39,840 nucleotides of DNA from NCBI GenBank assembly GCA_035939775.1, contig DASZFO010000370.1, forward strand, positions 1 through 39,840. The letters run 5' to 3'. The stretch comes from Pirellulales bacterium (GTDB taxonomy: Bacteria; Planctomycetota; Planctomycetia; Pirellulales; DATAWG01). The notes under the pieces were generated by a model. That model saw only the letters and a list, made by a program, of their open reading frames with translations, was not told where the DNA came from and made no database searches. Below are positions 1,948-21,880 of this stretch, in pieces; position 1 is the first letter of the stretch; each line of letters opens with the position of its first letter. Position numbers and translations under genes: made by a program.

Positions 1948-3042
1948 CTACGTGGGGTAACTCCCGTTCAACTCCCAGGCGTTCGCGGTGTCGGCGCGGG
2001 CGGATCGCGTCATGCGCCGATAGGCCGTCCGCGCGATCCATTGACCGCACGGCCCAATGTTCAGCAATATGCCGAGGATCCACGTCTTCCGGTTTCGCCG
2101 CGAGTGCCGCGGATAAGCCGCCCGCCCGAATGAATGAATCCGTCGCGCCTGCGCTCGCCTCCCACGAGCCAATTCCGCCAGACCGTGTCGGCCGATGTCG
2201 TACTCGACGAACGCGCGCTCGATCTCGGCCCGCGTGAGGTCCAGTTCCTTGAGGATGTTAGCGTCAATCTCGTAAGTTGACGCGTATTCGTCGACTAGGA
2301 ACTTAAGCGCTCCACTGCCAGTTTGTTGAGCCGTCTGGTTCGATGCATGCCAGCGATAGGCAAACAGGGGCCGATCGACGAAATAGGCCGCGTCGGCCCG
2401 GGACAACAGCTTCCAGTGGAACCATTTATCGGGATTCATCTGACGCGAGCCGCCGTAGCCCTCGACTGCCTCATAGAGTTTGCGCGGATATACGGTTGCC
2501 GCGAATTGAAACGGATTCTGCATCGTTACCAGCGAGCGACGGAGCAGCTCTCGAGCCGAGACCCGATAAACGGGCGCCCCGGCCGCTTCGTCCAATTCGC
2601 CGGCGCGATCGGTTTCTCGCCAAACGTCGTTTCGCGGTAATCCAACTCGTCCAATGGTCCGGTCCTCCGCATCGATCACGTCCATCGCGCTCGTGAAAAT
2701 CGCCTTCTCTGCAACTGGCCCCAGACGATCGAAGAGCGAGCGATACGTCGCCAGCGCAGCGGGCCGCATCAGGTCGTCCGAGGATAGCATTAGCATCCAG
2801 TCCCCGTCGGCCAAGTGAGCCGCGCGGTCCAGATTCGCAGCGAAGCCGACGTTGCAACGGTTTACGTGCAGTCGAATGCGCGGATCCGCGAAGCCGCGCA
2901 CGATTTCGACCGAGCGATCCGTGCTGGCATTATCAGAAACGAGGATTTCATATTCGAGGCCGGCTTGGTCGCGAACGCTTTGGATCGTGCGCCCAAGATA
3001 GCGCTCGTAGTTGTAATTCGGAATGCAGATCGAGAACTTCAA
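1948..3042 (-). CDS. Family 2 glycosyltransferase
   Basis: A 364-residue GT-A glycosyltransferase. It starts KFSICIPNYNYERYL, the first beta strand and turn of GT2 enzymes, followed by VSDNASTDRS (residues 36-44, nucleotide binding) and LMLSSDD (84-90, the metal-binding DxD-like site). Such enzymes transfer a sugar from an NDP-sugar to a lipid-linked glycan at the cytoplasmic face. The chosen start is TTG at 3042, whose TTGA overlaps the TGA stop of the upstream GT4 gene. The frame is open to 3141, but that extension is basic filler that would re-read the upstream gene's tail. No Shine-Dalgarno site precedes the TTG; instead a heptamer repeat tract lies there, so expression probably depends on coupling. 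Donor and acceptor cannot be told. Confidence 0.85.
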   Translation of the reverse strand: MKFSICIPNYNYERYLGRTIQSVRDQAGLEYEILVSDNASTDRSVEIVRGFADPRIRLHVNRCNVGFAANLDRAAHLADGDWMLMLSSDDLMRPAALATYRSLFDRLGPVAEKAIFTSAMDVIDAEDRTIGRVGLPRNDVWRETDRAGELDEAAGAPVYRVSARELLRRSLVTMQNPFQFAATVYPRKLYEAVEGYGGSRQMNPDKWFHWKLLSRADAAYFVDRPLFAYRWHASNQTAQQTGSGALKFLVDEYASTYEIDANILKELDLTRAEIERAFVEYDIGRHGLAELARGRRAQARRIHSFGRAAYPRHSRRNRKTWILGILLNIGPCGQWIARTAYRRMTRSARADTANAWELNGSYPT

Positions 3043-4331
3043 GGGGCGAGGGGCGAAGGGTGAGAGGCGAGGGATAGTGCAGGTCGGCCGACGGGGCATT
3101 TCACGGCTTCTTCGTAGGCTTGGAGGATGCCGGCTGCGCAAGTTTCGAGCGAATAGTGGGATTCTGCCCGCTGGCGGCTGGCGACGCCAAGTCGTGTACG
3201 GAGCGGCGGATCGTTTACCAGACGCATGATCGCCGCGGCCATCGTCGCCGATTCGCCTGCGGGGACCAGCAGCCCAGTCACTCCGTCGAGCACCGTTTCA
3301 CCGACGCCGCCACCGCGGACGCCGACGACCGGCAGTCCAGCGGCCATCGCTTCGACCGGAGTGCGACCGAACGATTCGTTGTCGGCAGGATGAACCAGGA
3401 TGTCGATTTCGGCCATAATTTGGGCTGGATCGGCCACGTGTCCCGGCCAGCGAAAACGGTCAGCCAAACCGCGCTCGCGGATAAGTCGATGGATTTCTTC
3501 CGCGTAACGATCACCCGGCCGAGTTCCCCCCGCCGTCGAATCGTGGCCGTAGATCCGGAATTCGACGCCCGCGGTCTCGCGCAGCCGCGCGGCTGCTTCG
3601 ACAAAGATTGAATGCCTCTTGGTTCGCGAGGTCAATGACGCAACCATGGCGACGATCAACGGTCCCTTTCGGACCTTATCTTGCCGCGGAACAAACGCTT
3701 GCACGTCGATGCCGTTTGGCACGACCCGCAGCATCGCGGCCGGAATCCAGCCGCGCGCCTTATCGGCCGCGATTTGTGAATTGGCAATTACCAGCGACGC
3801 ATGTTGCTTGATGAACCGGCTCAAGCCAGGTTTACTCTTGGCGATCCGAAAGGGCTGCCCGGCGCCAATCAGTTCGCGCAAATGCCAGATGTGCGGCAAT
3901 CCGAGCCGCCGCGCCGCGACTCCGCCTTCAGGGGTCAACATCGTGTTGGTGTGAATCAAATCAACTTGCTGACGGTGGGCGAAATCCGCCACTTTCCGCG
4001 ACGAACCGCGCATCCAGCCCGTTTGCAGGAGTTGATGAAGTTCGATCAACGGTCGCCTCCAGAGCGCGGCCCGGATTTTTCGGTTCCACCAATAGAGCGG
4101 CGTGAATAGAACCGCGCCGCGCGTCGCTTCGCGAAGTCGATCCCGCTCCTCGGAAGATCCCGCGTCGTGGCAGACTGCACAGGCCGCGATTCCCTGCTGC
4201 GAGTGTGACTCCATTACAGCAATCGTGCTCATCGCCGCGCCACCGCCGGCGCTATTAAGCACGTGCAACACCTTCCGCGGACGGTTCGTCGGCTTCCGCG
4301 GCGACGAAGGTTTAGATTCCACCAAAGTCAT
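3039..4331 (-). CDS. Family 4 (GT-B) glycosyltransferase
   Basis: A 430-residue GT4 glycosyltransferase. The N-terminal half begins KVLHVLNSAGGGAAMST, the glycine-rich acceptor-domain loop. The C-terminal half carries VVPNGID, the linker typical of GT4 enzymes, and NESFGRTPVEAMAAGLPVV, the E-x7-E type donor-binding motif. It probably adds a sugar to the lipid-linked repeat unit in the cytoplasm. The start is ATG at 4331, in an ATGA overlap with the stop of the upstream nucleotidyltransferase; a longer frame to 4409 exists but would cover the end of that gene. The extreme C-terminus (SLASHPSPLAP) is encoded by a heptamer repeat tract and is unlikely to be functional protein. The next gene is coupled by TTGA. 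Confidence 0.88.
   Translation of the reverse strand: MTLVESKPSSPRKPTNRPRKVLHVLNSAGGGAAMSTIAVMESHSQQGIAACAVCHDAGSSEERDRLREATRGAVLFTPLYWWNRKIRAALWRRPLIELHQLLQTGWMRGSSRKVADFAHRQQVDLIHTNTMLTPEGGVAARRLGLPHIWHLRELIGAGQPFRIAKSKPGLSRFIKQHASLVIANSQIAADKARGWIPAAMLRVVPNGIDVQAFVPRQDKVRKGPLIVAMVASLTSRTKRHSIFVEAAARLRETAGVEFRIYGHDSTAGGTRPGDRYAEEIHRLIRERGLADRFRWPGHVADPAQIMAEIDILVHPADNESFGRTPVEAMAAGLPVVGVRGGGVGETVLDGVTGLLVPAGESATMAAAIMRLVNDPPLRTRLGVASRQRAESHYSLETCAAGILQAYEEAVKCPVGRPALSLASHPSPLAP
3045..3072. repeat. Heptanucleotide tandem repeat (4 units)
   Basis: Four consecutive 7-bp units on the plus strand read GGCGAGG, GGCGAAG, GGTGAGA, GGCGAGG. They span the last codons of the GT4 gene and lie directly before the TTG start of the GT2 gene. 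Because 7 is not a multiple of 3, gain or loss of one unit would change the reading frame at this junction. Confidence 0.7.
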
Positions 4332-5050
4332 GGAGCAAAATGTTGCAAGAAGTGCCGCAGGTCTTCGGGCGTCCCCATCGCCCAAACTTCTTCCGCCGGA
4401 TCGATGCAAACCTCGGCGCCGGCGGCAATCATTCGGTTGTAGACTGGCACGACGTAAAACTCGCCCTTGATCCGCTCATTCTCGGCAATCATTGCTTCGG
4501 CATGACGGACAAAATCACGGCCACGGCGAAAATAGTAAAGCCCCGTGCTGGCCCAATCGGAGATTCGTCGTTTTTCGGCAGTCTCCAGCACGCGGCCGTT
4601 GGCGTCCGTTCGAGCGAAGCTCCATTTCGTTCCCGGCGCACGAAATACGCCGATCAGCCCGGCGATCTGCGGCGGCAACGCCGGAAGTCGCCGCGAGAGC
4701 CCCGTCTGGCAATATGTATCCGCATTGTAGATCAACAAGGGCTCGTCGTTGTCGATGAGCGCCGACGTCGTAAGGACGGTGCATGCTTGCCCCTCGGTGA
4801 CCTCGTCGAGTCGGACCACCTCGGGATTCAAGTGCGCGTAACGGCGATGAATATCGTCCTCGAGCGAACGCTGACGGAGATGCTCTTCAAGGCAAACGAA
4901 TATCACCCTCGAGGCCAACTCCAGCGGCAGGCTGTCCATCGCCCACGAATACATCGGCCTGCCATCGACGTCGATGAGCGGCTTGGGCGTATCGATCCCG
5001 ATCTGAGCGAACCGACTGCCTCGGCCCGCCATGGGCATGACGATGTTCAT
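4328..5050 (-). CDS. Nucleotidyltransferase (LicC/Cj1416-like sugar- or alcohol-phosphate NTP transferase)
   Basis: A 240-residue single-domain NTP transferase. It starts MNIVMPMAGRGSRF, the nucleotide-binding loop, with TPKPLIDVDGRPM (21-33, containing the conserved Lys23), TEGQAC (85-90) and YNADTYC (Asp111, metal binding). This compact form resembles cytidylyltransferases such as LicC and C. jejuni Cj1416, which activate phosphocholine or phosphoglutamine, as well as small sugar-1-phosphate nucleotidyltransferases. It is the third gene of a tightly packed cassette with a nucleotidyltransferase-kinase fusion and a HAD phosphatase. Both of its junctions are ATGA overlaps, so the start is secure. 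The substrate is unknown; activation of the product of the upstream kinase/phosphatase is the contextual inference. Confidence 0.85.
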   Translation of the reverse strand: MNIVMPMAGRGSRFAQIGIDTPKPLIDVDGRPMYSWAMDSLPLELASRVIFVCLEEHLRQRSLEDDIHRRYAHLNPEVVRLDEVTEGQACTVLTTSALIDNDEPLLIYNADTYCQTGLSRRLPALPPQIAGLIGVFRAPGTKWSFARTDANGRVLETAEKRRISDWASTGLYYFRRGRDFVRHAEAMIAENERIKGEFYVVPVYNRMIAAGAEVCIDPAEEVWAMGTPEDLRHFLQHFAP

Positions 5051-5454
5051 GACCGGTCGCGCGCCGCCCCGTTTTTCTGCGTTACAAATCTCGACTCCGC
5101 ACTAATCGGAAGCGAACTCCCGTCGGCGCTGATCCCGTCCCAACCCTCGAATCGCACGGCATTATCGTCGAGATACACATCGGCATGGGGCTTGCCGAAG
5201 TGAATCTCATCGTATTCGATTCCGTGCTCGGCAAGCCATTGGAGCGCAACAGCTCCCTGGCGCGCAACGACCTGACCGATATTCCCCCCGCAGGTCTTCA
5301 TGTGTCGCGCGGTGCAAATGATCACGTAGTGCCCGGCGGACCGCAAGGCGCGAAGTTTCTCGATCGCGCCCGGAACCGGCTCGAGGTCGGCATATTGCTG
5401 TCCCTCCTGTCGCAATTGGCAGATCACGCCATCGAGATCAATGCAGATTCGCAT
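5047..5454 (-). CDS. Small HAD-superfamily phosphatase, capsule-locus type
   Basis: A 135-residue HAD hydrolase. The opening MRICIDLDGV carries the DxD nucleophile pair (Asp6, Asp8), motif II is CTAR (Thr48), and HFGKPHADVYLDD supplies the motif III Lys88 and motif IV Asp96/Asp97. Small proteins of this form, with a GKPxADxYxDD motif, occur in capsule loci (BcbF-like) beside nucleotidyltransferases. It probably removes a phosphate from a pathway intermediate in the cytoplasm. The start is ATG at 5454, 14 bp after the kinase-fusion gene, with no clear ribosome site. Its stop overlaps the following nucleotidyltransferase by ATGA. The natural substrate cannot be read from the sequence. Confidence 0.85.
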   Translation of the reverse strand: MRICIDLDGVICQLRQEGQQYADLEPVPGAIEKLRALRSAGHYVIICTARHMKTCGGNIGQVVARQGAVALQWLAEHGIEYDEIHFGKPHADVYLDDNAVRFEGWDGISADGSSLPISAESRFVTQKNGAARDRS

Positions 5455-5468
5455 GAGAGTGCTGTCGT

Positions 5469-7253
5469 TTAACCCGGGGCCAATGGCGACGGCGCATGCC
5501 CGGGAGGCTCCATCCCCGCAGGTTCCGGAGGAAACAAAGTTGGAGACGAAAGTGCACCGATGTCCGGCACAAACAACTCGTCAAACAATTGCAGCGCGCG
5601 GGCGTACATGGCAATCTGCCGCGAAGGCGCATCGTAGTGCAGCGCTGGCATGCTCGCGAACAACAAGCCCGTGATCAGTAGGATCTCGCGACGGTCGAAC
5701 TGCTCGAAGAACACGCGTTCGAATCGCTCGCGAATTTGTCGATGCTGAGGGCGCGAGCGGATGTCCAGCCGAAGCTCCGTGCCACTCGCTGAAACATGGA
5801 ATAGATCGTTGGTGATGAAATCGTACAGGCCGTATATCGAATGATACAGCTTGGCGACGTCGTAACGCGGATCACCATAGATGCCCGACACGCCAAAGCT
5901 GCCTCGAGGATCCAACAGCTTGCAGACTCGCGAACGCATGTCGTACAAAATGTTCGATAGACAGAGGTCGCCGTGGATGACCGAGCCGCGAACGTCGGCC
6001 GCCAGCTTTTCGACTTCCGACTCCAATCGCTTCCAGAGCGCGGGAATGTTCTGCAGCGGGCGGCCGTTGACAATCAGTGGCCCCGTGTGCCGAGTCAGAC
6101 TCAACAGCTCGCTCGGTCCCTGAAGGCTTTCCAGTCGCTTGCGCGTCTTGCCAAGATACATGTCCTCGAGCGCGCCACGCGGAAGCGGATACGGCCTTTG
6201 CATGAATCCTTGCAAGATGATCTGCCGGAGGTGAACGAAGACTTGTTCCCAAATCCCCGGATCGACGTTCTCGAAGACGAATACCTCGGCCAGCGTCGGG
6301 TACCCGTAATACTCCATCGACAGCCACGGATCATGATAGTCGCTCGAGTAGCCGACCACTCGCGGAAACAGCACCGACAGTTCCGGCGGCAAAAGCCGCA
6401 GATAGTTGATCTCGTCGAGAAACTTCTCGACATGGCGGCTCCTCTTCGTCACGACGCCGAATACATTGTCGATCGAAAGTTCGTTGAAATCCCGCTTCTG
6501 CAACAAGGTTCGATGAGAGCTATCGCGGCGGTCGGCATTGCCGCAATCGAGCCAATCGCCGGCTGAAATAGCCTGAACCGGGCGGCGCTCGGCGATAATC
6601 TTCAGAATATCCGCCATTTCCGTGCGGCGTCCTTCGGCCGCCGCCCGTTCGTCCGCGGCGCCTGCCGCCATTTGCAACTCCACGAGATCTGGAAAATGGT
6701 AGACGCCGATCAATGCGGGGAGCGGTCCGGGCAGCCCGGCTTCTTTGTCGTGCCACGCCGTGACCGCGCCTTCCGCATCCAGCTCGACGGTACACCAACG
6801 GTAGGGATCGCTCACCGGCTGGGTCAATACAAGCGCCTCGCGTCGATCCAAGATCGTCGTATCCGCGAACTGAAAATAGGTGTCTCCCAGCACGACGAGC
6901 GCTCGGTCGGCCTGTGCAGCTTCGGCAAGTTCCGAGACAGTCCGGCCCACGCCGCGACTGATCGAAGGGACCATGAACGAAACGTCGCAATCCGTGCCGA
7001 ACGTGCAATCGACAAAATCCTCGATGAACATTCCGCGCCGCGATACCGCGATCAGAAACCGTTTCAGGCCCAACGAGCGGAGGTATTTCATCGTCCAATA
7101 GATAACGGGCCGTCCCGCCACGGGAATCATCGCCGGACAGCCGATATTCCCAAGCGCCAGAATTCCCTCCGGTACGCCGCCGGCGGCGGGAATCAACACC
7201 GCCGTCTCGGCGAGGGAATTCAAGTGAGCGCCGTTGTCCTTCGAACTTGTCAA
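5469..7253 (-). CDS. Nucleotidyltransferase-phosphotransferase (APH-like kinase) fusion protein
   Basis: A 594-residue two-domain protein. Residues about 15-245 form an NTP-transferase domain: LIPAAGGVPEG in place of the usual GxGTR loop, MIPVAGRPVIYW (42-53), VLGDTYF with metal-binding Asp124, and LDCGN (236-240). Residues about 260-560 form an aminoglycoside phosphotransferase/choline-kinase-like domain: hinge MEYYGYP, catalytic loop VIHGDLCLSN (His427, Asp429, Asn434), and LLDPRGSFG, the DFG equivalent at 447-454. This order matches LicC-LicA fusions known in some spirochaetes, where the enzyme phosphorylates and then activates choline. The substrate here is unknown. The start is TTG at 7253, preceded by GAGGA at 7262-7258 four bases upstream. 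The degenerate nucleotide loop could mean altered or weak NTP use. Confidence 0.8.
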   Translation of the reverse strand: MTSSKDNGAHLNSLAETAVLIPAAGGVPEGILALGNIGCPAMIPVAGRPVIYWTMKYLRSLGLKRFLIAVSRRGMFIEDFVDCTFGTDCDVSFMVPSISRGVGRTVSELAEAAQADRALVVLGDTYFQFADTTILDRREALVLTQPVSDPYRWCTVELDAEGAVTAWHDKEAGLPGPLPALIGVYHFPDLVELQMAAGAADERAAAEGRRTEMADILKIIAERRPVQAISAGDWLDCGNADRRDSSHRTLLQKRDFNELSIDNVFGVVTKRSRHVEKFLDEINYLRLLPPELSVLFPRVVGYSSDYHDPWLSMEYYGYPTLAEVFVFENVDPGIWEQVFVHLRQIILQGFMQRPYPLPRGALEDMYLGKTRKRLESLQGPSELLSLTRHTGPLIVNGRPLQNIPALWKRLESEVEKLAADVRGSVIHGDLCLSNILYDMRSRVCKLLDPRGSFGVSGIYGDPRYDVAKLYHSIYGLYDFITNDLFHVSASGTELRLDIRSRPQHRQIRERFERVFFEQFDRREILLITGLLFASMPALHYDAPSRQIAMYARALQLFDELFVPDIGALSSPTLFPPEPAGMEPPGHAPSPLAPG

Positions 7254-7280
7254 TTGATCCTCATCACCGCAACTCGACGG

Positions 7281-8915
7281 TCACTTGCCGCTGGTCACTC
7301 GAAACCCGCCACTCCCGCTTGTCGCCAGCGGCGGCTGATCGTTTCCCGCGGCAACTTGCGCGCGGAGGAAATTGCCAATGTCCAACAAGGTCAGGCTTCC
7401 GTCGACCGCCGGACCGCTTTCGCGCGTTCGCTGCAGGGTCGCCAAATCGCTGTCCGTGTCATAAACAAAGCAGGGCACATATTCGCGCGCTGCCTGGCAA
7501 TTCGGCATGAAGTCCGGGGCAACCGCCGGGTCCGCTGGATGATCGGAATAGATCACGACCGTGGCCGAACTCAGCGAACCGATGTAGGCACTGATTTGGT
7601 TGTCGAGATAACGCATGTTGTTCAGATAGTTCTCGGCGATCGATTGCGGCTGTGGAAAAACATCTCGCTGATTGCAGCCGAGCAGATTGTAGGGCGTGTG
7701 CGTCGTCAGGGTGATTATGAAATGGCAGACTTTCCCGGAGGCCTCTTGAAGCCGTCGCGCCGAGAGATCCAAAACCTGCCGGTCTTCAATTCCCCAAGCA
7801 ATTTGCGGCAGGCCGTCCCGCTCGATCATTTCTTCCTCGAAGTGGATCTCCGCAAATCCCATCTTTTCGAAGGCTGCACGTCGATTATAGAAGTTGCCCG
7901 TGTTGCCGTGAAATGCTTCCGTTCGATAACCGAATTGACCAAGAAACTGCGGCAGCGTGTTGCGATAGGGATAGTTCGGGATATTGTAAGTGATGATGTG
8001 CATCGAAGGCATCACGCTGTTCAACATCACGAAATCCGCGTCCGCCGAGCCGATGTATCGCGCGGCCGAGATTCGATAGAACAACGACCGCTCGCGAAGC
8101 CGGTTCAAGAACGGAGTGACTTCCTGGCCGTTGGCCTGACAACCTAACACGTTGAAATCCAGGCTTTCGGCCTGAATGATCACGAGTTGACGGCGAATCG
8201 GTATCGACGTCTCAATCGGCGTCAGAGCGTCGGACGTGACTTGCTGCTGCCGGATTGCGCTTTCGAGCACTTGCCGCTTGCCGAGGTAAAAGAACTCCGC
8301 CAGCCAGGTGACGAAATACCCGCGGATCATCCCGAGCCGCCCGATGCCGCGCGTTGTCAGGATTCTGTCGAGTGGATCAATCCAACTGGCCAGCGCCATC
8401 AATCCAACGTAGCCAACCGCAGCCACAGTGCCGACGGCCCACAACATACCGCGTCCGACGCCCGGATCCGGGGCTGTCGCCAAGAGCGCAAGTTTGACGA
8501 GCAGGCTAGCGCCGAAGATCAAATTGAGCCCTCGTGTGCGAGCCCTTACCGAATGGCTGCTTGCTTTCGCACCCTCGCGCCAATTGTGATACATCGTTAG
8601 CGCTGACACGGGGCGCAGAAAATATTGGAAATGGACCATCAAGCCCAAATGCGCCAAAAACACTATCACCGAGACGAGCATGAGTCCGACCGGCGACAGA
8701 AACATCGTGATCGCCGTCGTGAAGCAAACGTCGATGGAAAGGCGGATCCGCGGCGCCCAGCGAGCGAACTGCGGACTGCTATCTTGTGGAGATAGGAGCG
8801 TCTTCGCCTGAACCGTGTACAATCCCGTGGTCCAAAGCCCAATGAACGCCAGTGTATGCCAGAGCCACCCCGCGTCAGGCACGGCCAGCCAACCGAAATA
8901 AAAAGCAAATCCCAT
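7281..8915 (-). CDS. LtaS-like phosphotransferase (alkaline phosphatase/sulfatase superfamily membrane protein)
   Basis: A 544-residue protein with about five membrane segments (roughly residues 16-36, 58-77, 78-98, 129-147, 156-178) and a large extracytoplasmic catalytic domain. Metal and catalytic motifs match lipoteichoic acid synthases: QLVIIQAESLD (Glu250), GSADADF where LtaS has its threonine nucleophile (here Ser290), AFHGNTGNFYNR (His336), LTTHTPY, and IYSDH (Asp458, His459). Relatives move phosphoglycerol or phosphoethanolamine from phospholipids to glycans. A Ser nucleophile is plausible but differs from LtaS Thr. Its place directly before a kinase/nucleotidyltransferase/HAD cassette suggests a phospho-substituent on the glycan. 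ATG at 8915 is the only good start; no Shine-Dalgarno site is seen. Phospho-donor and acceptor are unknown. Confidence 0.85.
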   Translation of the reverse strand: MGFAFYFGWLAVPDAGWLWHTLAFIGLWTTGLYTVQAKTLLSPQDSSPQFARWAPRIRLSIDVCFTTAITMFLSPVGLMLVSVIVFLAHLGLMVHFQYFLRPVSALTMYHNWREGAKASSHSVRARTRGLNLIFGASLLVKLALLATAPDPGVGRGMLWAVGTVAAVGYVGLMALASWIDPLDRILTTRGIGRLGMIRGYFVTWLAEFFYLGKRQVLESAIRQQQVTSDALTPIETSIPIRRQLVIIQAESLDFNVLGCQANGQEVTPFLNRLRERSLFYRISAARYIGSADADFVMLNSVMPSMHIITYNIPNYPYRNTLPQFLGQFGYRTEAFHGNTGNFYNRRAAFEKMGFAEIHFEEEMIERDGLPQIAWGIEDRQVLDLSARRLQEASGKVCHFIITLTTHTPYNLLGCNQRDVFPQPQSIAENYLNNMRYLDNQISAYIGSLSSATVVIYSDHPADPAVAPDFMPNCQAAREYVPCFVYDTDSDLATLQRTRESGPAVDGSLTLLDIGNFLRAQVAAGNDQPPLATSGSGGFRVTSGK

Positions 8916-8940: not shown

Positions 8941-11001
8941 TCATTCAAAAGTCACACCGGACCGAAGCGCTAGCGATGGGCGAGAATCGCTTTCCTTAGC
9001 GAGCGCTTCCGGATGTTGTGCTGCCTTGGCCGTCGGCGCGTCCAGCACGTTGCGACACCAAAGTTCCAACAGCATCAACGACCAGAGCCGCGGATAAACA
9101 TTTTCCGCCAATGACTCCGAAGATTGCATCAGCGGGGCGACCACCGCCGGATCGATTAGCCCACGGCGCGCAATCGTCTGCGGATTGCAAACATCCGCAA
9201 GCATCGGCTTCAGATTGGTGCGCAGCCAATGCACAAGCGGTAGCGCGAATCCACGCTTCGGCCGGGTCGCAATGTCGGCGGGCAATACGTCGCGCATGGC
9301 TTGGATCAACACGCGCTTCGCGCCACTCTGGGCATATCGGTCATCGAAGCCGCCGTCGAATCGGAGCTTGAATTCGTCCAGACAAGTCCGTGAGAACTTC
9401 GCGACCTCCACGTCAACGAGCGGGGTCCGCAACTCCAGCGAATGGGCCATGCTCATCACGTCGGAATCGCGAAGCAATTGGTTCCCCATGTAAACGCCAG
9501 AGTCGAGCAAGCAGGCCAATCCAATCGGCGACTCGCGGCGAACGTCGTCGCTGATCGTCGAAAGATAGCTTTCCAGTTTCGTGACGTCCCCCGCCGAGTC
9601 GAACGACAACCCAGCGATGCAACGAGATTCGTCATCGTCGAACGACAAGCCGGCCATGCAACGAGATTGGTCGTAACGGAACACGTGATGCGCGTGTAGC
9701 CAAGTCGCTAGCGGCGAGCGCCGCGTCGACAGATTGTGCGCGCGTTGACGGATCCGACCCTCAAGCAATCGCGATTGCAATCGCGACGCCAGTTTGCCGG
9801 CCATAGCCTCCAACCGCCCCAGGGGATGCGTGGCATAATAGGTCATTCTTCGCGTCACCGGGTAGCCGGCGAACCACTCGTCGCCCCCCACTCCGGAGAG
9901 CACGGCCTTGACATCGTGCGCCGCCGCGCGCGAGATGAGCCAGGTGTTTAGCCCGTCGATCGACGGCTGATCCATTGCCCGAATATGCTCCGGCAGCAGC
10001 TCGATCATTTCGCTACCGCGGACTTCGACGACCGTATTGACGCAGCCGAGCGCATGGGCCGTGGCGGTTGCGTAATCGGACTCGTCCGCTCGCGGCAGGT
10101 CCGGAAACTTGAGCGTATACGTGCGGAGGTTAGGAATGTGCTTGCGCATCATGCCGGCGATGCCGCTGGAATCGACGCCGCCGCTCAAAAACGCCCCGAC
10201 GGGCGCATCGGCAAAGGCGTGCAGGGCGACGCTGTCCTCGAGCACGCCGCGCAGCCGCTCGGCCGCTTGATCGAGCGTTTCTTGTCTCGGTTCATAGGCC
10301 GGGATTCGCCAAAACCGGCGCCGTTCGACTGGCTTGCCTGGGGCATAGCGTTCGAGCGTGCCGCAATCGAGCAATCGCACGCCGGCGATAATCGTTTGCG
10401 GCTGGATTATGAACCCGCGCGCGAGGTACTCCGCTAATCCATTTGGATCGACGCGCCGTGGAACCAGCCCGCTGGCCAGTAGGCCGCGAACTTCGGATGC
10501 GAAGATTACGCCATTCGGATTGCCCTTTGGCGCAGCGACGTAGAGCGGCTTGATCCCGAGCGGATCGCGAGCCATTACCATCACTGGGTTACCACCGGCT
10601 GACGACTCGCGCCAATCGAAGATCGCCAGCGCAAACATGCCGCGGAGACGATCGACGAAGTCCATTCCCCGCTCCAGATACAGGTTCAGAATAACTTCCG
10701 TATCGGTGGTCGTTCGGAACCGGAAGCCTTCTCGCTCGAGTCGCTCCCGCTCGCCGCGGAAGTTATAGATTTCGCCATTAAAAACGATCGCGACGCGACG
10801 ATCGACCGACCATAGCGGCTGCTGCCCGCGATCCGAAAGGTCCACAAGCGCCAGCCGCACCATCCCCGCCGCACCGCCATCGAAGGCAAGCATCCCCCGT
10901 CCATCCGGACCACGATGCTGCATCGCATCGAGCATCGCGCCGACGGCCGCGCCGGCATCAGCGCCGCTCTGCAGGTTCCAAATTCCGGCTATTCCACACA
11001 T
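8941..11001 (-). CDS. asnB: AsnB-type glutamine-dependent amidotransferase (asparagine synthase-like)
   Basis: A 686-residue class II amidotransferase. Cys2 of MCGIAGIWN is the glutaminase nucleophile; NGEIYNF and the TDTEV region complete the N-terminal domain. The synthase domain has the ATP-binding PP-loop SGGVDSS and the conserved SLELRTPLVD near the C-terminus. In glycan loci such proteins often convert uronic acid carboxyls to amides rather than making asparagine, and that is the likely role here. It carries a 13-residue tandem duplication (SRCMAGLSFDDDE then SRCIAGLSFDSAG) encoded at 9601-9678, and a C-terminal extension beyond the core. It lies 25 bp before the LtaS-like gene and 45 bp after the SDR epimerase gene in transcription order. 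A paralogue sits at 26785-28749. Confidence 0.88.
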   Translation of the reverse strand: MCGIAGIWNLQSGADAGAAVGAMLDAMQHRGPDGRGMLAFDGGAAGMVRLALVDLSDRGQQPLWSVDRRVAIVFNGEIYNFRGERERLEREGFRFRTTTDTEVILNLYLERGMDFVDRLRGMFALAIFDWRESSAGGNPVMVMARDPLGIKPLYVAAPKGNPNGVIFASEVRGLLASGLVPRRVDPNGLAEYLARGFIIQPQTIIAGVRLLDCGTLERYAPGKPVERRRFWRIPAYEPRQETLDQAAERLRGVLEDSVALHAFADAPVGAFLSGGVDSSGIAGMMRKHIPNLRTYTLKFPDLPRADESDYATATAHALGCVNTVVEVRGSEMIELLPEHIRAMDQPSIDGLNTWLISRAAAHDVKAVLSGVGGDEWFAGYPVTRRMTYYATHPLGRLEAMAGKLASRLQSRLLEGRIRQRAHNLSTRRSPLATWLHAHHVFRYDQSRCMAGLSFDDDESRCIAGLSFDSAGDVTKLESYLSTISDDVRRESPIGLACLLDSGVYMGNQLLRDSDVMSMAHSLELRTPLVDVEVAKFSRTCLDEFKLRFDGGFDDRYAQSGAKRVLIQAMRDVLPADIATRPKRGFALPLVHWLRTNLKPMLADVCNPQTIARRGLIDPAVVAPLMQSSESLAENVYPRLWSLMLLELWCRNVLDAPTAKAAQHPEALAKESDSRPSLALRSGVTFE
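9601..9678. repeat. 39-bp in-frame tandem duplication inside the amidotransferase gene
   Basis: Two adjacent 39-bp units (9601-9639 and 9640-9678) share the start GAACGACAA and the core ATGCAACGAGATT, with about nine differences. They encode two 13-residue copies in the protein. The divergence shows that the duplication is not a recent assembly artefact. Confidence 0.75.
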
Positions 11002-11046
11002 CTAAAGTTTGCAACTTCTCCCAAGCGACATTCGAACGTCACCGAC

Positions 11047-12021
11047 TCACTCCTTGCGTACCGATCCGTCGGTGACTCCGTAAACCTTCTTCATCCATTC
11101 GATCGTGCGCCGCACGCCTTCCTCGAGTGTAACGCTGTCCTTGTGCCCCAAATCGCGGACCGCTTTTGAATTGTCCACCTTCTTCACGCGAGTGGTCAGT
11201 ACCTCCGCGTCGCGGTACTCGACGAGCCCCGGATCGGCGCCAGTTACCTTGAGTACCATGTCGGAAAGCTCTTCGATCGAATGGTATTGATTGCTGCCGA
11301 TGTTATAGACTTCGCCGGGCTTGAAGTTGGTGCAGATATTGGCGAGCGACCGCACCGTATCTTCGACGTAGGTCGAGCTGCGGTAATAGTTGCGAAAGAC
11401 GACCCAGGGCAGGCCCATCAAGCCGCAATACATGAAGCGGCAATTGACCGAGCGGTATGGACTGTAGTATTCGCCGGGGCCGTAAGTATTGAATAGCCGC
11501 ACGACGACGCTTTCGGTGCCGAATTGAACTCGCGAGTTGCGGATCTGACACTCGTTGACCCATTTCGAGAGGGCGTAGTCGTTCATCTGCTTGATTTCAT
11601 TCTTCTCCATCACGTCTTCGGACATCACGTCGTCCCAATCGCCATAGACTTCGGACGACGAGAAATGGACGAGGCGGAAGCGATGTTGCTCTTGCAAGCG
11701 CAAGACGTTTTTCGTGCCGACGGCGTTCGTTCGCCAAACCTGTTCGTAAAAATCTTCGCCGTTCCAGCGGCCGAATTCGGCCGCCAAGTGATAGACGACG
11801 TCGAAGGGTCCCATCACGTCGAAGATTCTGGCCAATTGCCGGCTGTCTCCCACATCGCAGCGAACATAGGTCGGCTTTTCCACGTCGGTTCGCAGGCTGA
11901 AGCCGATTTCGTCGGTGCCGTGGGTCAAGTCGCAACTAACGACGCCATGGCCGCGCGCCGCAAGTTCCCGGGTCAAAACCGATCCGACTGTTCCACGTCC
12001 GCCGGTAACTAGAATCTTCAA
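11047..12021 (-). CDS. NAD-dependent sugar epimerase/dehydratase (extended SDR)
   Basis: A 324-residue extended short-chain dehydrogenase. It starts MKILVTGGRGTVGS (GGxGxxG dinucleotide-binding motif), has SSSEVYG holding the catalytic Ser region, and YALSK supplying the Tyr and Lys of YxxxK. It probably epimerises, dehydrates or reduces an NDP-sugar in the cytoplasm. The exact substrate is not clear; UDP-glucose 4-epimerase and dTDP-glucose 4,6-dehydratase relatives share this pattern. The start is TTG at 12021, well supported by GGGAGG at 12035-12030, eight bases upstream. This is the best Shine-Dalgarno site among the minus-strand genes, and the gene follows a 92-bp gap, so a separate transcript or strong internal initiation is possible. 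Confidence 0.85.
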   Translation of the reverse strand: MKILVTGGRGTVGSVLTRELAARGHGVVSCDLTHGTDEIGFSLRTDVEKPTYVRCDVGDSRQLARIFDVMGPFDVVYHLAAEFGRWNGEDFYEQVWRTNAVGTKNVLRLQEQHRFRLVHFSSSEVYGDWDDVMSEDVMEKNEIKQMNDYALSKWVNECQIRNSRVQFGTESVVVRLFNTYGPGEYYSPYRSVNCRFMYCGLMGLPWVVFRNYYRSSTYVEDTVRSLANICTNFKPGEVYNIGSNQYHSIEELSDMVLKVTGADPGLVEYRDAEVLTTRVKKVDNSKAVRDLGHKDSVTLEEGVRRTIEWMKKVYGVTDGSVRKE

Positions 12022-16279: not shown

Positions 16280-17883
16280 TAGGCCGCCATTGAAACGCGC
16301 TTGTCAATTTGACGGCGCACAAACACCAATACTTCTCGGACGCTCGGATCGCCTGTCAACCAAAGAAGCGCCATGTAGACGGCCACGCCGCCCATGCCGA
16401 TTGCTAGTTGCAGAAATGGGCTCGTCACGCCAATTATGAGCGTCGGTAAATATGCCGCCGCACCGCAAACGGCAATTCGGATCATGCTGAACCACGAATA
16501 AGGGATCTCGACCAACCGGCATGAAATGACGCCTGCAACCAACGCCGACATCAACATCCGAGCCGCACTGCCCCAGGCCACGCCTGCCGCACCGTAGGTC
16601 TTCACCGTAAGCACGGCGATCGCGATCTCGATAGCCGCCGAACCATAGACGATCACCGGCATGAGCCATGTTCGCTTGCTGAAAAAGATCTCCGGGCCGA
16701 GTAAGTTGTATGCCGTCATGCCCAAGAATCCGACGGCGAAGATCGGCACCAATGGCGCCGCCGCGTGGTAGTCGCCCGGGGTCACCAGCACGACGAGCGG
16801 TGGTCCCATCAGGGCCGCCGCAATGGCGAAGGCGACGGCCGCTGCCCAGACGTTGCGCGCCGTTACGGCCAGGCGATCCAGTCCGGCGACGGTCCCTTCC
16901 TTCCGGACCGAGAAATAAACCGGATTGTAAGCGGTCTGAAAGGCAAGACCCAACATCGTTAGCGGCTGCGTCACTCGAAGCGCCAGATAAAACAGGCCGT
17001 TCGCCGCGGTAGTTTGGACCCCAGACAGAACCGCGCCGGTCACAAAGGGCGTCAGGTTGCCGACAAAATCCCCTGGCATCATCCCCCAACCGTAACTCAA
17101 CGACGATTTCAGCATCGACCGGCGAAAATGTCCCCGCAGTTCCGCGCGGAGATACCAGATCGCCACCAAACCCAGCACTCCGTACGACACCACTTCCGCC
17201 GAAAGGACTCCTAACGCGCCCCATCGAAGAACGACGACCAAAAGGATCGCCAAGACGATCGAGATGCTGGCTCGGCCGACGTTCAGTCGGGCTTGATACG
17301 AAGATTGCTCGCGGGCTTGAACCAGTCGACTCTGCAATTCTCCATTGCAATACGCGATACCACTTAAGATCGCCAAAAACGCCAGCGGCAGCGGCAGGCC
17401 AGGCACCAGGTAGCCCAAGAGCCAAGGAGATACCATCGTCGCGACCAGCGCAACGAGCAGGCTAGAACCCAGCAAGTACCAGGCGACAGTCGTAACATAG
17501 TCCCGCAGCGAAGGGCCTTCGTCGTGATCGTAGTAGTATCGCGCGACTGCTCCCGGCACTCCCTGCCGCATCAAGGCCATAATAAATCCGCCGAACTGGA
17601 TCGACAGAGAAATCCCCCCGTACTCCATCGGCGATAAGATCCGCGTATAGACTGGCAGCAGCAGGAGCTGGATAAACTTTGGGATCGATTGACCGAGACC
17701 GTAGTTGAATGTTCCGCCGACAACCCGGCGGACCAGGCCTCGGCGTTGTCCATCACTCCCAGGTGCGGACTTGGCCGCGCTCGTGACGTCGGTATTTATT
17801 CCGCCCGGCGGCATGTCATGCATCACTGACTTCGCGCCGGCGACAGCTTGGGCGGTCGCGTCTTTTATCTCTTCAACGCTCAA
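16279..17883 (-). CDS. Wzx-like oligosaccharide flippase (polysaccharide transporter family)
   Basis: A polytopic protein of about 534 residues with around twelve to fourteen hydrophobic segments, matching the polysaccharide transport (PST/MOP) superfamily. The family signature is seen in GGTFNYGLGQSIPKF followed by LLLPVYTRILSP, with a C-terminal block of paired helices. It should flip undecaprenyl-diphosphate-linked repeat units to the outer face. The preferred start is TTG at 17883, overlapping the neuA stop as TTGA; a GTG at 17907 is an alternative that adds eight residues. About 50 hydrophilic residues (KDATAQAVAGAKS onward) precede the first membrane segment, which is longer than usual for Wzx. 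Flippase and CMP-sugar synthetase are therefore translationally linked. Confidence 0.88.
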   Translation of the reverse strand: MSVEEIKDATAQAVAGAKSVMHDMPPGGINTDVTSAAKSAPGSDGQRRGLVRRVVGGTFNYGLGQSIPKFIQLLLLPVYTRILSPMEYGGISLSIQFGGFIMALMRQGVPGAVARYYYDHDEGPSLRDYVTTVAWYLLGSSLLVALVATMVSPWLLGYLVPGLPLPLAFLAILSGIAYCNGELQSRLVQAREQSSYQARLNVGRASISIVLAILLVVVLRWGALGVLSAEVVSYGVLGLVAIWYLRAELRGHFRRSMLKSSLSYGWGMMPGDFVGNLTPFVTGAVLSGVQTTAANGLFYLALRVTQPLTMLGLAFQTAYNPVYFSVRKEGTVAGLDRLAVTARNVWAAAVAFAIAAALMGPPLVVLVTPGDYHAAAPLVPIFAVGFLGMTAYNLLGPEIFFSKRTWLMPVIVYGSAAIEIAIAVLTVKTYGAAGVAWGSAARMLMSALVAGVISCRLVEIPYSWFSMIRIAVCGAAAYLPTLIIGVTSPFLQLAIGMGGVAVYMALLWLTGDPSVREVLVFVRRQIDKRVSMAA

Positions 17884-18590
17884 TGGATTGCATCCCGGGG
17901 GCGGCACCCTGACCGAAGGAATTCAGCAAACGCCAAATCCAATTCATCGTTGATATCGATCGACCGCTCGCGCGTCATGACGTGGCCGCGGCAATCATCG
18001 CCGATGATTCTCCCGGCGTCGATTGCGGTTCGGCGGGCCACGTACACAGAGCAATTCCGCACGAAAACCCGCGGCAACTCGTGGACCGCCATCCGCCCCG
18101 CTTCTGCTTCAAAGTAGGGCAATAGACGATTCTCGTGCATGACTTTGAACTTCGCCGGGTGCAAATCGTGGCTGACTTCCACGACAGTGACGGCGCTATC
18201 GGCCCCTGAGGTTTCAAGCAGATCAATTGTCGCATCAATGTCCGACGGCAGCGTCAGCGGGCTGCTCGGCTGAATAATCGCGACGGCGTCGAATCGCTGC
18301 GGTTCGCCCGGCTCAACGCTGCGGAGCGCATGGAGCACGTAGTCGATGGCCGGCGACGTGTCGGTGCAAAATTCAGCGGGCCGCCGCAGTGGCAATCGCT
18401 GGTCGTATGTCGTGGCAAGGCCCAGAATCTCGGCGTCATCGGATGAAACTACGAGTCGATCGACGCGCTGCGCTCCGCGCGCCGCTTCGATCGCCCAAGC
18501 CACGAGCGGTTTGCCCGCGAGCAGCCGTAAGTTCTTCCGCGGAAGGCGCTTTGAACCGCCTCGAGCGGGAATGATGCCCAAAATCCTCAT
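17880..18590 (-). CDS. neuA: Acylneuraminate (nonulosonate) cytidylyltransferase
   Basis: A 236-residue enzyme of the NeuA/PseF/LegF family, which transfers CMP from CTP to a nonulosonic acid. It opens MRILGIIPARGGSKRLPRKN, the diagnostic CTP-binding loop, followed by GKPLVAWAI, VSSDD, and IIQPSSPL, all conserved. The C-terminal SIDINDELDLAFAE matches the family ending. The start is ATG at 18590, two bases after the stop of the dehydrogenase gene. Together with NeuB and NeuC upstream it completes a CMP-sialic-acid-type pathway. Which nonulosonate is activated (Neu5Ac, legionaminic or pseudaminic acid) cannot be decided here. Confidence 0.92.
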   Translation of the reverse strand: MRILGIIPARGGSKRLPRKNLRLLAGKPLVAWAIEAARGAQRVDRLVVSSDDAEILGLATTYDQRLPLRRPAEFCTDTSPAIDYVLHALRSVEPGEPQRFDAVAIIQPSSPLTLPSDIDATIDLLETSGADSAVTVVEVSHDLHPAKFKVMHENRLLPYFEAEAGRMAVHELPRVFVRNCSVYVARRTAIDAGRIIGDDCRGHVMTRERSIDINDELDLAFAEFLRSGCRPRDAIH

Positions 18591-18592
18591 GT

Positions 18593-19555
18593 TCAGGCGG
18601 CCGCGCACCCGGCGAGCGCCGCCACGACCTTGTGCGCCAGGAAAAGCTCTGTCTTCTCAAATGACTCGATCGTGTTTCCGCCGATATGCGGTGTGAGAAT
18701 CACATTGACATGCTTGCGAGCGTAGGAAACCACCGGATGGTCGGGGCGAATCGCCGGTTCGCCGTCCAATACGTCAAGCGCCGCGCCGGCGAGACGGCCC
18801 GACGAAAGTGCGTCGATCAGCGCCGCTTCATTCACGATGCCGCCGCGCGAAGTGTTGATCAATACCGCGCCGGGCTTCATCTTTCTAAACTCATTCGTGC
18901 CGATCAGGCCCCGCGTGGCCTCTTCGTATTTCACCAGCAGCACGACGATGTCCGCCTCGGCGAGCAACTCACCGAGTTGCGCCACGCGCTCTGCAGCCTC
19001 TGTGGGGTAATCATCGCGCGGATCATAGCCGATCACGCGAGTTCCGAAGGCTTTGAAATAACCGGCGGCCAAAGTTCCGAGCCGGCCCATGCCGACGATC
19101 CCGACCGTGCGGCCGAACAATTCCCGCCCGCGAAATTGATCGCGGTCCCAAATCCCCTCCCGGGCCGCAACCTGGGCGGCGGGGATTCTTCGCAATAGGC
19201 TGAACGTGAGACCGATCGTAAGTTCCGCCGTCGCTCGTACATTTTTGAGAAACTCGGTTTCGCCGCGCAAGCTCACGACGCGAACCCCTTGCGCCTCGCA
19301 GGCTGCAAGATCGATATGGTCCAGTCCGGTGACGGGGGTCGCCAGGATACGGCAGCGCGGCCTCGATCCAATCATTGTTTCGTCGATCCGATATGCCAAG
19401 CGAAACCAGATCACGTCGTACGCGGCGAATGCGGCAGCCAAATCTTCACGCCGACACTCTCGCAACTCGACTTCTCCAACCTTCCGCAAAATCGCCAATG
19501 CCGCGGGACTAAAATCGAGCGGCTCGGCAATCAGTATCTTTGGATTCGTCAACAA
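18593..19555 (-). CDS. D-isomer-specific 2-hydroxyacid dehydrogenase
   Basis: A 320-residue enzyme of the D-2-hydroxyacid dehydrogenase family, complete with the Arg-Glu-His active site: NTSRGG (Arg237), DGEPA (Glu266) and LTPHIGG (His290). The NAD-binding loop is VGIVGMGRLG (151-160). Such enzymes reduce a 2-keto acid to a D-2-hydroxy acid or the reverse (phosphoglycerate dehydrogenase, glyoxylate or hydroxypyruvate reductase, CtBP relatives). Its place between neuC and neuA is odd because standard sialic acid synthesis has no such step. It may act on the keto acid of a nonulosonate, supply a C3 unit, or make a hydroxyacyl substituent. The start is a TTG at 19555 followed by a second TTG; no clear ribosome site is visible. 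Confidence 0.85.
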   Translation of the reverse strand: MLTNPKILIAEPLDFSPAALAILRKVGEVELRECRREDLAAAFAAYDVIWFRLAYRIDETMIGSRPRCRILATPVTGLDHIDLAACEAQGVRVVSLRGETEFLKNVRATAELTIGLTFSLLRRIPAAQVAAREGIWDRDQFRGRELFGRTVGIVGMGRLGTLAAGYFKAFGTRVIGYDPRDDYPTEAAERVAQLGELLAEADIVVLLVKYEEATRGLIGTNEFRKMKPGAVLINTSRGGIVNEAALIDALSSGRLAGAALDVLDGEPAIRPDHPVVSYARKHVNVILTPHIGGNTIESFEKTELFLAHKVVAALAGCAAA

Positions 19556-19596
19556 ATGGAAAGGCCCGGCGAAGCCGCGACCAATGTAGCAGGCAT

Positions 19597-19631
19597 ACTC
19601 CGTGTGCCGTCGCTGTCACGGCACACGGAGT
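19597..19631. repeat. Perfect 14-bp palindrome with 7-nt loop between neuC and the dehydrogenase gene
   Basis: ACTCCGTGTGCCGT (19597-19610) and its exact complement ACGGCACACGGAGT (19618-19631) flank the loop CGCTGTC. It begins just four bases past the neuC stop on the minus strand. No T-tract follows on either side, so it looks more like a dispersed palindrome or a transcript-processing/stability hairpin than an intrinsic terminator. Only one copy is in this window. Confidence 0.75.
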
Positions 19632-19635
19632 GTAC

Positions 19636-20827
<1,192 letters not shown>

Positions 20828-20835
<8 letters not shown>

Positions 20836-21880
20836 AATGGTTCTCCGCGAGCAAGGTGTCGGCGGTCACCGCGACGGTCAAGCGCCGACCGATCACTTCG
20901 TTGAGCCGTGCGGCGGGAATTCCGGTGCCGGGTTTCTTGAGCGCCAAATCATCCGTGCCCAATCGATGCCCGGAGGGCAGGTCTCGCGCGGCGACGATGC
21001 TCTTGCCGAACAGCGCGCGAATCTCGTCCAATTGAGCAGCCTCAGCGTCCTTGTCGAGCGGGTTGGCAACCGCCTTCTCGAGAAAGCGAACCCCGTCGAC
21101 TAATTGCTTCAACTCGGCAGTCGTCACCGATGCGGACACATCCGGCCCGAAACACTCGCGCGACAACACGACGTGGACCTCGAGCAGATTCGCGCCCAAC
21201 GTCACAGCGGCCAGGCCGGGATAGATGGTGCCCGAATGATCCGATAGGCCAACAGGGCATGCGTAGCGATCGCGGATTTCAGCGAGCACATTCAGGCCGA
21301 TCTTCTCGGGCGGACACGGATATGCGGTAGTACATTGCAGCACGGCAACCGGCGCCCCCGCGCCGCGAACCAAGTGCACCGCGGCATCGAGATGCTCCCA
21401 CGAGGCCATTCCACTCGACAGAATCACCGGTCGGCCCGTTCCGGCGAGGCGCTTCAGAAAAGGCAGATTCGTCAATTCGCCCGATCCCACTTTCCATGCC
21501 GGCGTATCGATCGCCTGAAGCTGATCCACGGCAGCGAAGGAAAACGGTGTCGATAGGAAAATAAGCCCCATGTCGCGAGCATGATCGGCCAATTCGCGCC
21601 AGGCTTCGGGCGCGAACTCCATTCGCTTCCAATAGTCGAATCGCGTTGCATCTTGATGAGAAAAGCGGACGCGGAATTGTTCGGCGGCGGTCGATTCGGC
21701 CGCGGCGATGTGCGTTTGGAATTTTACCGCATCGGCGCCGGCTCGTGAGATCGCGTCGATATAGGCGTGGGCTGTCCCCAGGCTTCCGTCGTGCGCTTGG
21801 GCTACTTCGCCGACGATGAGGCAAGGGTCACCGATGCCGACGGAATGTCCTTCAATTTCCAGAGCGTTCGCGATCAGAAT
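20828..21880 (-). CDS. neuB: N-acetylneuraminate/nonulosonate synthase with anomalous start
   Basis: Condenses a ManNAc-type sugar with phosphoenolpyruvate. An ATG at 21622 would give only 264 residues, but the frame stays open upstream to 21880 and encodes the conserved barrel start: GIGDPCLIVGEVAQAHDGS, GADAVKFQTH and SHQDATRFDYWKR. With it the protein is about 350 residues, the family's normal length. The C-terminus holds the SAF (antifreeze-like) domain, GTGIPAARLNEVIGR. No ATG, GTG or TTG precedes this N-terminus after the in-frame TAA at 21883-21881; the first candidates are ATT (21880) and CTG (21877). A TTG overlapping the upstream stop (TTGA, 21895) is in frame but is ended by that TAA after four codons. 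Rare start, nonsense mutation or sequencing error are all possible. Confidence 0.85.

Follow-up and report, generated by a model that had tools for sequence, protein, structure and literature searches.

A conserved kinase, phosphatase and nucleotidyltransferase cassette in a planctomycete surface-polysaccharide locus: a candidate route to a nucleotide-activated ketofuranose

Three adjacent genes of a Pirellulales bacterium, encoding a nucleotidyltransferase-kinase fusion (FUS), a HAD phosphatase and a nucleotidyltransferase (NT2), are the subject of this report. They lie on contig DASZFO010000370.1 (C370 in our analysis; assembly GCA_035939775.1, genome of 6.4 Mb), which was analysed from position 1 to 39,840; this whole stretch, of G+C content 0.60, is called the window below. 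Pfam and profile scans of its genes revealed many glycosyltransferases, and the whole window reads as a surface-polysaccharide locus. The original prediction had described four consecutive genes at 4328-8915, and all four open reading frames were found there, on the minus strand:

4328-5050, minus strand: NT2, nucleotidyltransferase with an intact G-x-G-S-R...PK loop (Pfam NTP_transferase, 9.6e-09)
5047-5454, minus strand: HAD phosphatase, sister of the EcbF-BcbF family TIGR01689 (Pfam HAD/NT5C, 3.1e-07)
5469-7253, minus strand: FUS, nucleotidyltransferase-like domain with a degenerate loop (residues ~16-250) followed by an APH-type kinase (~250-562) (Pfam APH, 7.3e-06)
7281-8915, minus strand: LtaS-like membrane protein with a sulfatase-fold domain (Pfam Sulfatase, 1.6e-19)

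The LtaS-like and FUS genes are separated by 27 bases. Since HAD and NT2 share a 4-base overlap and a gap of 14 bases separates FUS from HAD, these three genes are probably co-transcribed. The end of the FUS gene is also spanned by a 30-base sequence, TCGTTTAACCCGGGGCCAATGGCGACGGCG (5465-5494), of which 13 more near copies (90-93%) occur in the genome; it is a dispersed short repeat.

The N-terminal domain of FUS has the fold of a nucleotidyltransferase without its nucleotide loop. A degenerate loop had been predicted and is indeed present: the window protein reads AAGGVPEGILALGNIGCPAMIP where G-x-G-x-R...PK would be expected, and this loop is absent in 78 of the 79 FUS loci from genomes (scan described below); the few FUS proteins with an intact loop are mostly viral. 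In the structural model (predicted local distance difference test, pLDDT, 88) the nucleotidyltransferase fold occupies the first ~250 residues, with 8f73 as the best structural match (Z 25.1, rmsd 2.6, 234 residues aligned) and HddC as the best PDB sequence match (6jq8, 2.2e-08). Residues D124 and D236 are retained and would occupy the positions expected for metal binding. The kinase behind this domain retains its catalytic motifs: HGDxxxxN (427-434) and DPRG (448-451) have no exception in a 28-sequence alignment, and GDxRYDxAKLxHS and SMxxLHxDxxxRQ are likewise invariant. The window protein thereby shows the combination that marks the Escherichia coli K4 cassette discussed below, i.e., HGDxxxxN, DPRG, GDxxYDxAK and LHxDxxxRQ preceded by a nucleotidyltransferase-like domain that lacks the PK loop. 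Modelled alone, the kinase domain (pLDDT 91.5) is of the APH type, with structural matches at Z 15-18, and glucosamine kinase, APH(2''), maltokinase, 5-methylthioribose kinase and LicA all fall within about one Z unit (17.9-16.9). Because these matches are nearly tied, the substrate cannot be named by fold alone. The former description of the fusion as LicC-LicA-like was too specific, LicA being one of several near-equal matches. Maltokinase and 5-methylthioribose kinase, two of the sugar kinases with which the fold groups, phosphorylate an anomeric hydroxyl, so that the APH-type fold is capable of such chemistry. The same genome encodes a second nucleotidyltransferase-kinase fusion (L214, contig C141, around 5859-6239; also L039) with an intact nucleotide loop; no HAD or NT2 gene was found adjacent to it, and we read it as a paralogue with another role.

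Both partner proteins retain their catalytic residues. In the HAD protein motifs I (DxD), III (Lys) and IV (DD) are intact, with D6, D8, K88, D96 and D97 invariant among 18 sequences. It scores 74.5 bits against TIGR01689, below the curated cut-off of 162, and lacks the GKPWCG insertion of the EcbF-BcbF family; its nearest solved relative is 1xpj. In NT2 the loop follows the G-x-G-x-R...PK pattern, and R13, P22, K23 and D111 are invariant in 24 sequences. NT2 had been taken for a LicC/Cj1416-like enzyme; its nearest solved relative is, however, 4evw (1.2e-23), and we propose that it makes a nucleotide sugar.

To assess how far these genes travel together, an alignment of FUS alone was used to scan 84,980 genomes, which yielded 79 loci in Planctomycetota, Myxococcota, Acidobacteriota, Verrucomicrobiota, Bacteroidota, Bacillota, Chloroflexota, candidate phyla, Thaumarchaeota and others. 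Cultured carriers of the cassette include Trichococcus pasteurii (L100), Levilactobacillus suantsaii (L087) and Steroidobacter gossypii (L099). At the 54 loci that were well flanked (3 kb or more to either side), neighbours on the same strand within 4 kb were counted: HAD was present at 49, NT2 at 53 and both at 48, and in some species HAD is fused to NT2. The window follows this pattern, its HAD and NT2 genes adjoining FUS as in the K4 cassette. In the nearest relatives the order of the block is amidotransferase, FUS, HAD, NT2, GT4, GT2, Wzy_C. Most trio loci show no enzyme devoted to making a precursor, which would fit a pathway that starts from a central metabolite.

Co-occurrence of all four genes had been suggested as a check of the original prediction; the trio passes it and the LtaS-like gene does not. 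Only the window and a single further planctomycete (loci L031 and L048 being one genome) have the latter between the amidotransferase and FUS genes, and we therefore rejected it as a member of the cassette. Its product matches the lipoteichoic acid synthase model NF053595 with 83.8 bits (9.8e-24), far from the equivalog cut-off of 970, and by sequence is a sulfatase-fold relative and not an LtaS equivalog. At what we take to be the position of the LtaS catalytic Thr, this protein and one close relative read GSADADF and GSSDADF, with Ser at that place.

A connection between FUS and NT2 emerged when loops and neighbours were compared at 128 distinct loci with good flanks, drawn from genomes, viral contigs, plasmids and E. 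coli, the loops being classed by reading. NT2 was present at none of the 23 loci where the FUS loop is intact, and at 97 of the 105 where the nucleotidyltransferase domain of FUS is degenerate or missing (Fisher 6e-19, a figure that overstates the evidence, as the sequences are not independent and relatedness is uncorrected). As NT2 never accompanies an intact loop and nearly always accompanies a lost one, we conclude that NT2 has taken over the work of the N-terminal FUS domain, which was once a nucleotidyltransferase itself. It follows that the kinase, HAD and NT2 belong to one pathway. The earlier suggestion of a phosphorylation followed by activation with a nucleotide is thus supported, now with kinase, phosphatase and nucleotidyltransferase as a single conserved cassette.

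The connection to a particular sugar comes from E. coli, where the O-antigen clusters of O78 and O20/O137 carry the trio, as do several capsule clusters and plasmids; it is also found on a Citrobacter plasmid. At the locus of strain SCU-115, the protein lengths fit those that we take to belong to the K4 capsule genes. Primers for the deletion of kfoE in E. coli K4 have been published (PMC7429809), and both of their 50-base arms match the K4-type locus L131 with 0 mismatches, one at 10220-10269 (the end of HAD) and the other at 11839-11888 (the start of NT2). Since these arms exactly flank 10270-11838, which is FUS, kfoE of E. coli K4 is exactly the FUS gene and lies between the same HAD and NT2 genes. 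Without kfoE the K4 capsule loses its beta-fructofuranose side chains, and non-fructosylated chondroitin is left (PMC7925653, PMC7429809), a backbone that is phosphate-free in its published repeat (PMC3593321). The FUS homologue of K4 is therefore required for fructosylation. This requirement for the addition of a sugar, together with the poor conservation of the LtaS-like gene beside the trio, leaves phospho-decoration of the glycan through an LtaS-like enzyme, as formerly envisaged, without support.

K4 and the window share the same three proteins with the same catalytic residues in kinase, HAD and NT2, as well as family-specific residues; in both the FUS loop is degenerate and the NT2 loop intact. 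They differ in gene order (HAD, FUS, NT2 in K4; FUS, HAD, NT2 in the window), and K4 has a group 2 capsule, other neighbouring transferases and an HAD above the TIGR01689 cut-off. The K4 HAD (193 bits) and that of a K52-like locus (203 bits) are full EcbF-BcbF members. The K52 capsule presumably contains fructose, and ST69 H18 strains are presumably K52. The names EcbF and BcbF derive from proteins of Pasteurella multocida types E and B. EcbF and BcbF resemble the window HAD in being phosphatases of surface polysaccharide loci, and differ from it by their insertion and their score; fructofuranose is present in the capsules of P. multocida types B and E and of Haemophilus influenzae type e (PMC10627249). 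The solved relatives 1xpj and 4evw are much closer to the K4 proteins than to those of the window, and their PDB names give no function. Both are Vibrio cholerae proteins, and the V. cholerae core presumably contains fructose.

A variant of the cassette was found at about 40 cyanophage-like loci and in one planctomycete (L053). Here the kinase, HAD and NT2 are joined by DHBP-synthase-like (RibB) and transaldolase/fructose-6-phosphate-aldolase-like genes (L121 4478-8016; viral contigs L139-L184; L053 8248-12819). Viral loci often have the RibB-like protein fused to NT2, phage S-SKS1 being one case; in L053 its fusion partner is FUS. This five-enzyme variant probably serves to synthesize and activate an unusual ketose, and the sugar of the viral variant is probably not plain fructose.

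We propose that FUS, HAD and NT2 constitute one nucleotide-sugar pathway acting on a ketose phosphate, most likely fructose 6-phosphate, and put the probability of this reading at roughly 55%. In the order that we infer for the steps, the FUS kinase would phosphorylate a ketose phosphate at what is presumably its anomeric hydroxyl, converting fructose 6-phosphate, the likeliest substrate, into fructose 2,6-bisphosphate. HAD would then take off the original terminal (6-)phosphate to give fructose 2-phosphate, and NT2 would couple this with a nucleoside triphosphate to form a nucleoside diphosphate (NDP)-fructofuranose or, more generally, an NDP-ketofuranose. A neighbouring glycosyltransferase, with the GT4 enzyme at 3039-4409 as the first candidate, would attach the sugar to the surface-polysaccharide repeat unit; the LtaS-like gene would stand outside this pathway. 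That the window trio makes some nucleotide-activated sugar by a three-step route of this kind seems to us likely, and clearly more so than the choice of the sugar. Fructofuranose itself as the sugar of the window is put forward tentatively, at somewhat less than even odds.

Several points weigh against this reading. The identity between window and K4 proteins is only 27% for FUS, 37% for HAD and 30% for NT2. In the kinase trees, all of which are quick trees, the kinases of K4, the K52-like locus, O78 and O20 group apart in a clade distant from the window, whose own clade holds Myxococcota, Verrucomicrobiota and a viral clade; the viral and planctomycete variant with RibB-like and transaldolase-like genes is closer to the window than K4 is. 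Because of this low identity and these nearer relatives, fructose is for the window only the likeliest sugar. The E. coli O78 O-antigen cluster carries an intact HAD-FUS-NT2 trio (L129 10001-12728), yet the published O78 repeat is not known to contain fructose. This contradiction would be resolved if an acid-labile side chain of O78 were lost in work-up. As a separate observation, the O78 cluster has one glycosyltransferase beyond the apparent need of what we take to be a four-sugar repeat. To our knowledge none of the trio enzymes, K4 homologues included, has been assayed, and no report of CDP-, GDP- or NDP-fructose biosynthesis was found in the literature searched.

Among the alternatives, the one that survives best retains the same three-step activation and changes the sugar to sedoheptulose, xylulose, ribulose, a RibB-derived four-carbon ketone or an aldofuranose. 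The closeness of the window clade to the RibB-like and transaldolase-like variants points in this direction, as do the fusions of RibB with NT2 and FUS and the trio of O78 with no reported fructose. On the other hand, the window trio has neither a RibB-like nor a transaldolase-like gene next to it, the same holds for most cellular trio loci, and the family-specific residues are common to the window and K4. We thus regard another sugar as possible rather than probable.

Very unlikely is a pathway of the Lic type, in which the product of a LicA/LicC-like kinase and cytidylyltransferase would be CDP-choline, CDP-ethanolamine or a CDP-polyol, with the phospho-group transferred to the glycan by the LtaS-like protein or a related one. 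The likeness is one of folds, i.e., an APH/choline-kinase-fold kinase (LicA, at Z 16.9, is among its nearly tied matches) combined with an NTP-transferase-fold enzyme, and it is joined by the LtaS-like neighbour with its match to NF053595 and by genes of the CDP-glycerol glycerophosphotransferase family that lie close to some other trio loci. However, the phosphocholine pathway has no phosphatase step, so that HAD would be superfluous, and no pseudo-nucleotidyltransferase fusion, and it requires LicD. The earlier remark that LicD is missing agrees with the Pfam scan, which covered 30 window genes and showed no LicD, two short open reading frames lying outside it. The LtaS-like gene recurs beside the trio in a single further genome, and in K4 the kfoE gene is required for adding fructose to a backbone free of phosphate. 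The doubt expressed at the outset about phosphocholine as the product was justified.

Still less likely is an NDP-heptose-type route, in which sedoheptulose 7-phosphate would be isomerized to heptose 7-phosphate and then pass through kinase, phosphatase and nucleotidyltransferase by the logic of HddA, GmhB and HddC. The trio does share with that pathway (HldE/HddA, GmhB, HddC) the logic of an anomeric kinase, a distal phosphatase and a nucleotidyltransferase in the same order, and HddC is the best PDB sequence match of the FUS N-terminal domain. But this HddC-like domain is without its loop, the kinase is of the APH type instead of the GHMP or ribokinase type, and the HAD belongs to another family. 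Among the window genes scanned there is no GmhA-type (SIS) isomerase and no GHMP or HldE kinase; true SIS genes were found next to FUS in S-SRM01, MA9V-1 and L183 only. The genes annotated as "phosphoheptose isomerase" beside FUS in phages 9183 and S-SKS1 (L120 4666-5010; L121 6854-7210) give a false hint of heptose, because they are the cassette HAD phosphatase. Finally, that FUS itself is a fructosyltransferase, as the kfoE product has been called in view of the lost fructosylation (PMC7925653), is the least likely of these readings, since Pfam scan and structure comparison found no recognised glycosyltransferase domain in FUS, the KfoE sequence likewise consists of a nucleotidyltransferase-like domain and a kinase, the catalytic motifs of the latter are intact, and the deletion phenotype is equally expected from loss of the donor.

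The proposed pathway on a ketose phosphate needs a transferase, and the genes around the cassette include candidates:

3039-4409, minus strand: GT4 glycosyltransferase, candidate transferase for the activated sugar, a function suggested by position only
1948-3141, minus strand: GT2 glycosyltransferase, the conserved next gene and alternative candidate (scans and neighbour comparison)
8941-11001, minus strand: asparagine synthase-like amidotransferase, upstream of the cassette and kept in the nearest relatives
249-1676: Wzy_C/ligase-like
16282-17907: Wzx-like
17883-18608: CMP-sugar synthetase-like
20831-21622: NeuB-like synthase

GT4 directly follows the trio at L040, L041, L042, L046, L047 and L048, all of the window clade. 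In E. coli O78, on plasmids, in Clostridia and elsewhere, the trio has WavE-family (PF07507) neighbours (L129 6798-7754; L105 7582-8670; L128 16309-17331; L063, L069, L091, L096, L098), which are candidate transferases for the activated sugar. WavE as a universal partner was rejected: it accompanies some trio loci, and no match turned up in a search of the window genome, which was not decisive. At an E. coli plasmid locus a 562-residue protein (L123 5351-7036) is homologous (5.7e-73) to part of an 829-residue protein of the K52-like capsule locus (L130 6659-9145); both lie beside the trio and are weakly DUF7796-like. Apart from the cassette, the window groups a NeuB-like synthase, a 2-epimerase and a CMP-sugar synthetase with a D-2-hydroxyacid dehydrogenase at 17883-21622, a nonulosonic-acid-type block in which the dehydrogenase is unexpected and which is partly present in L048 too.

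We know of no biochemically described pathway to a nucleotide-activated ketofuranose, nor of a described activated fructose donor for the fructofuranose capsules of E. coli K4, P. multocida B/E and H. influenzae e. The conserved cassette, three small soluble enzymes, is tied to fructofuranose chemistry by K4, and the "fructosyltransferase" of chondroitin engineering looks like a kinase. The alternation of an intact nucleotidyltransferase domain with a separate NT2 is, in addition, a clean case of domain displacement. A wider reading, whose odds we place only just short of even, is that ketofuranose activation by this cassette extends across bacteria, archaea and phages, with kfoE as a fructose-activating kinase. 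If it is true, the five-enzyme viral branch would extend the activation to a further ketose via its DHBP-synthase-like and transaldolase-like enzymes. Fructofuranosides are acid-labile and easily lost during glycan work-up, and since the cassette occurs in phages and across many phyla, furanose-bearing glycans may be an under-recognised class.

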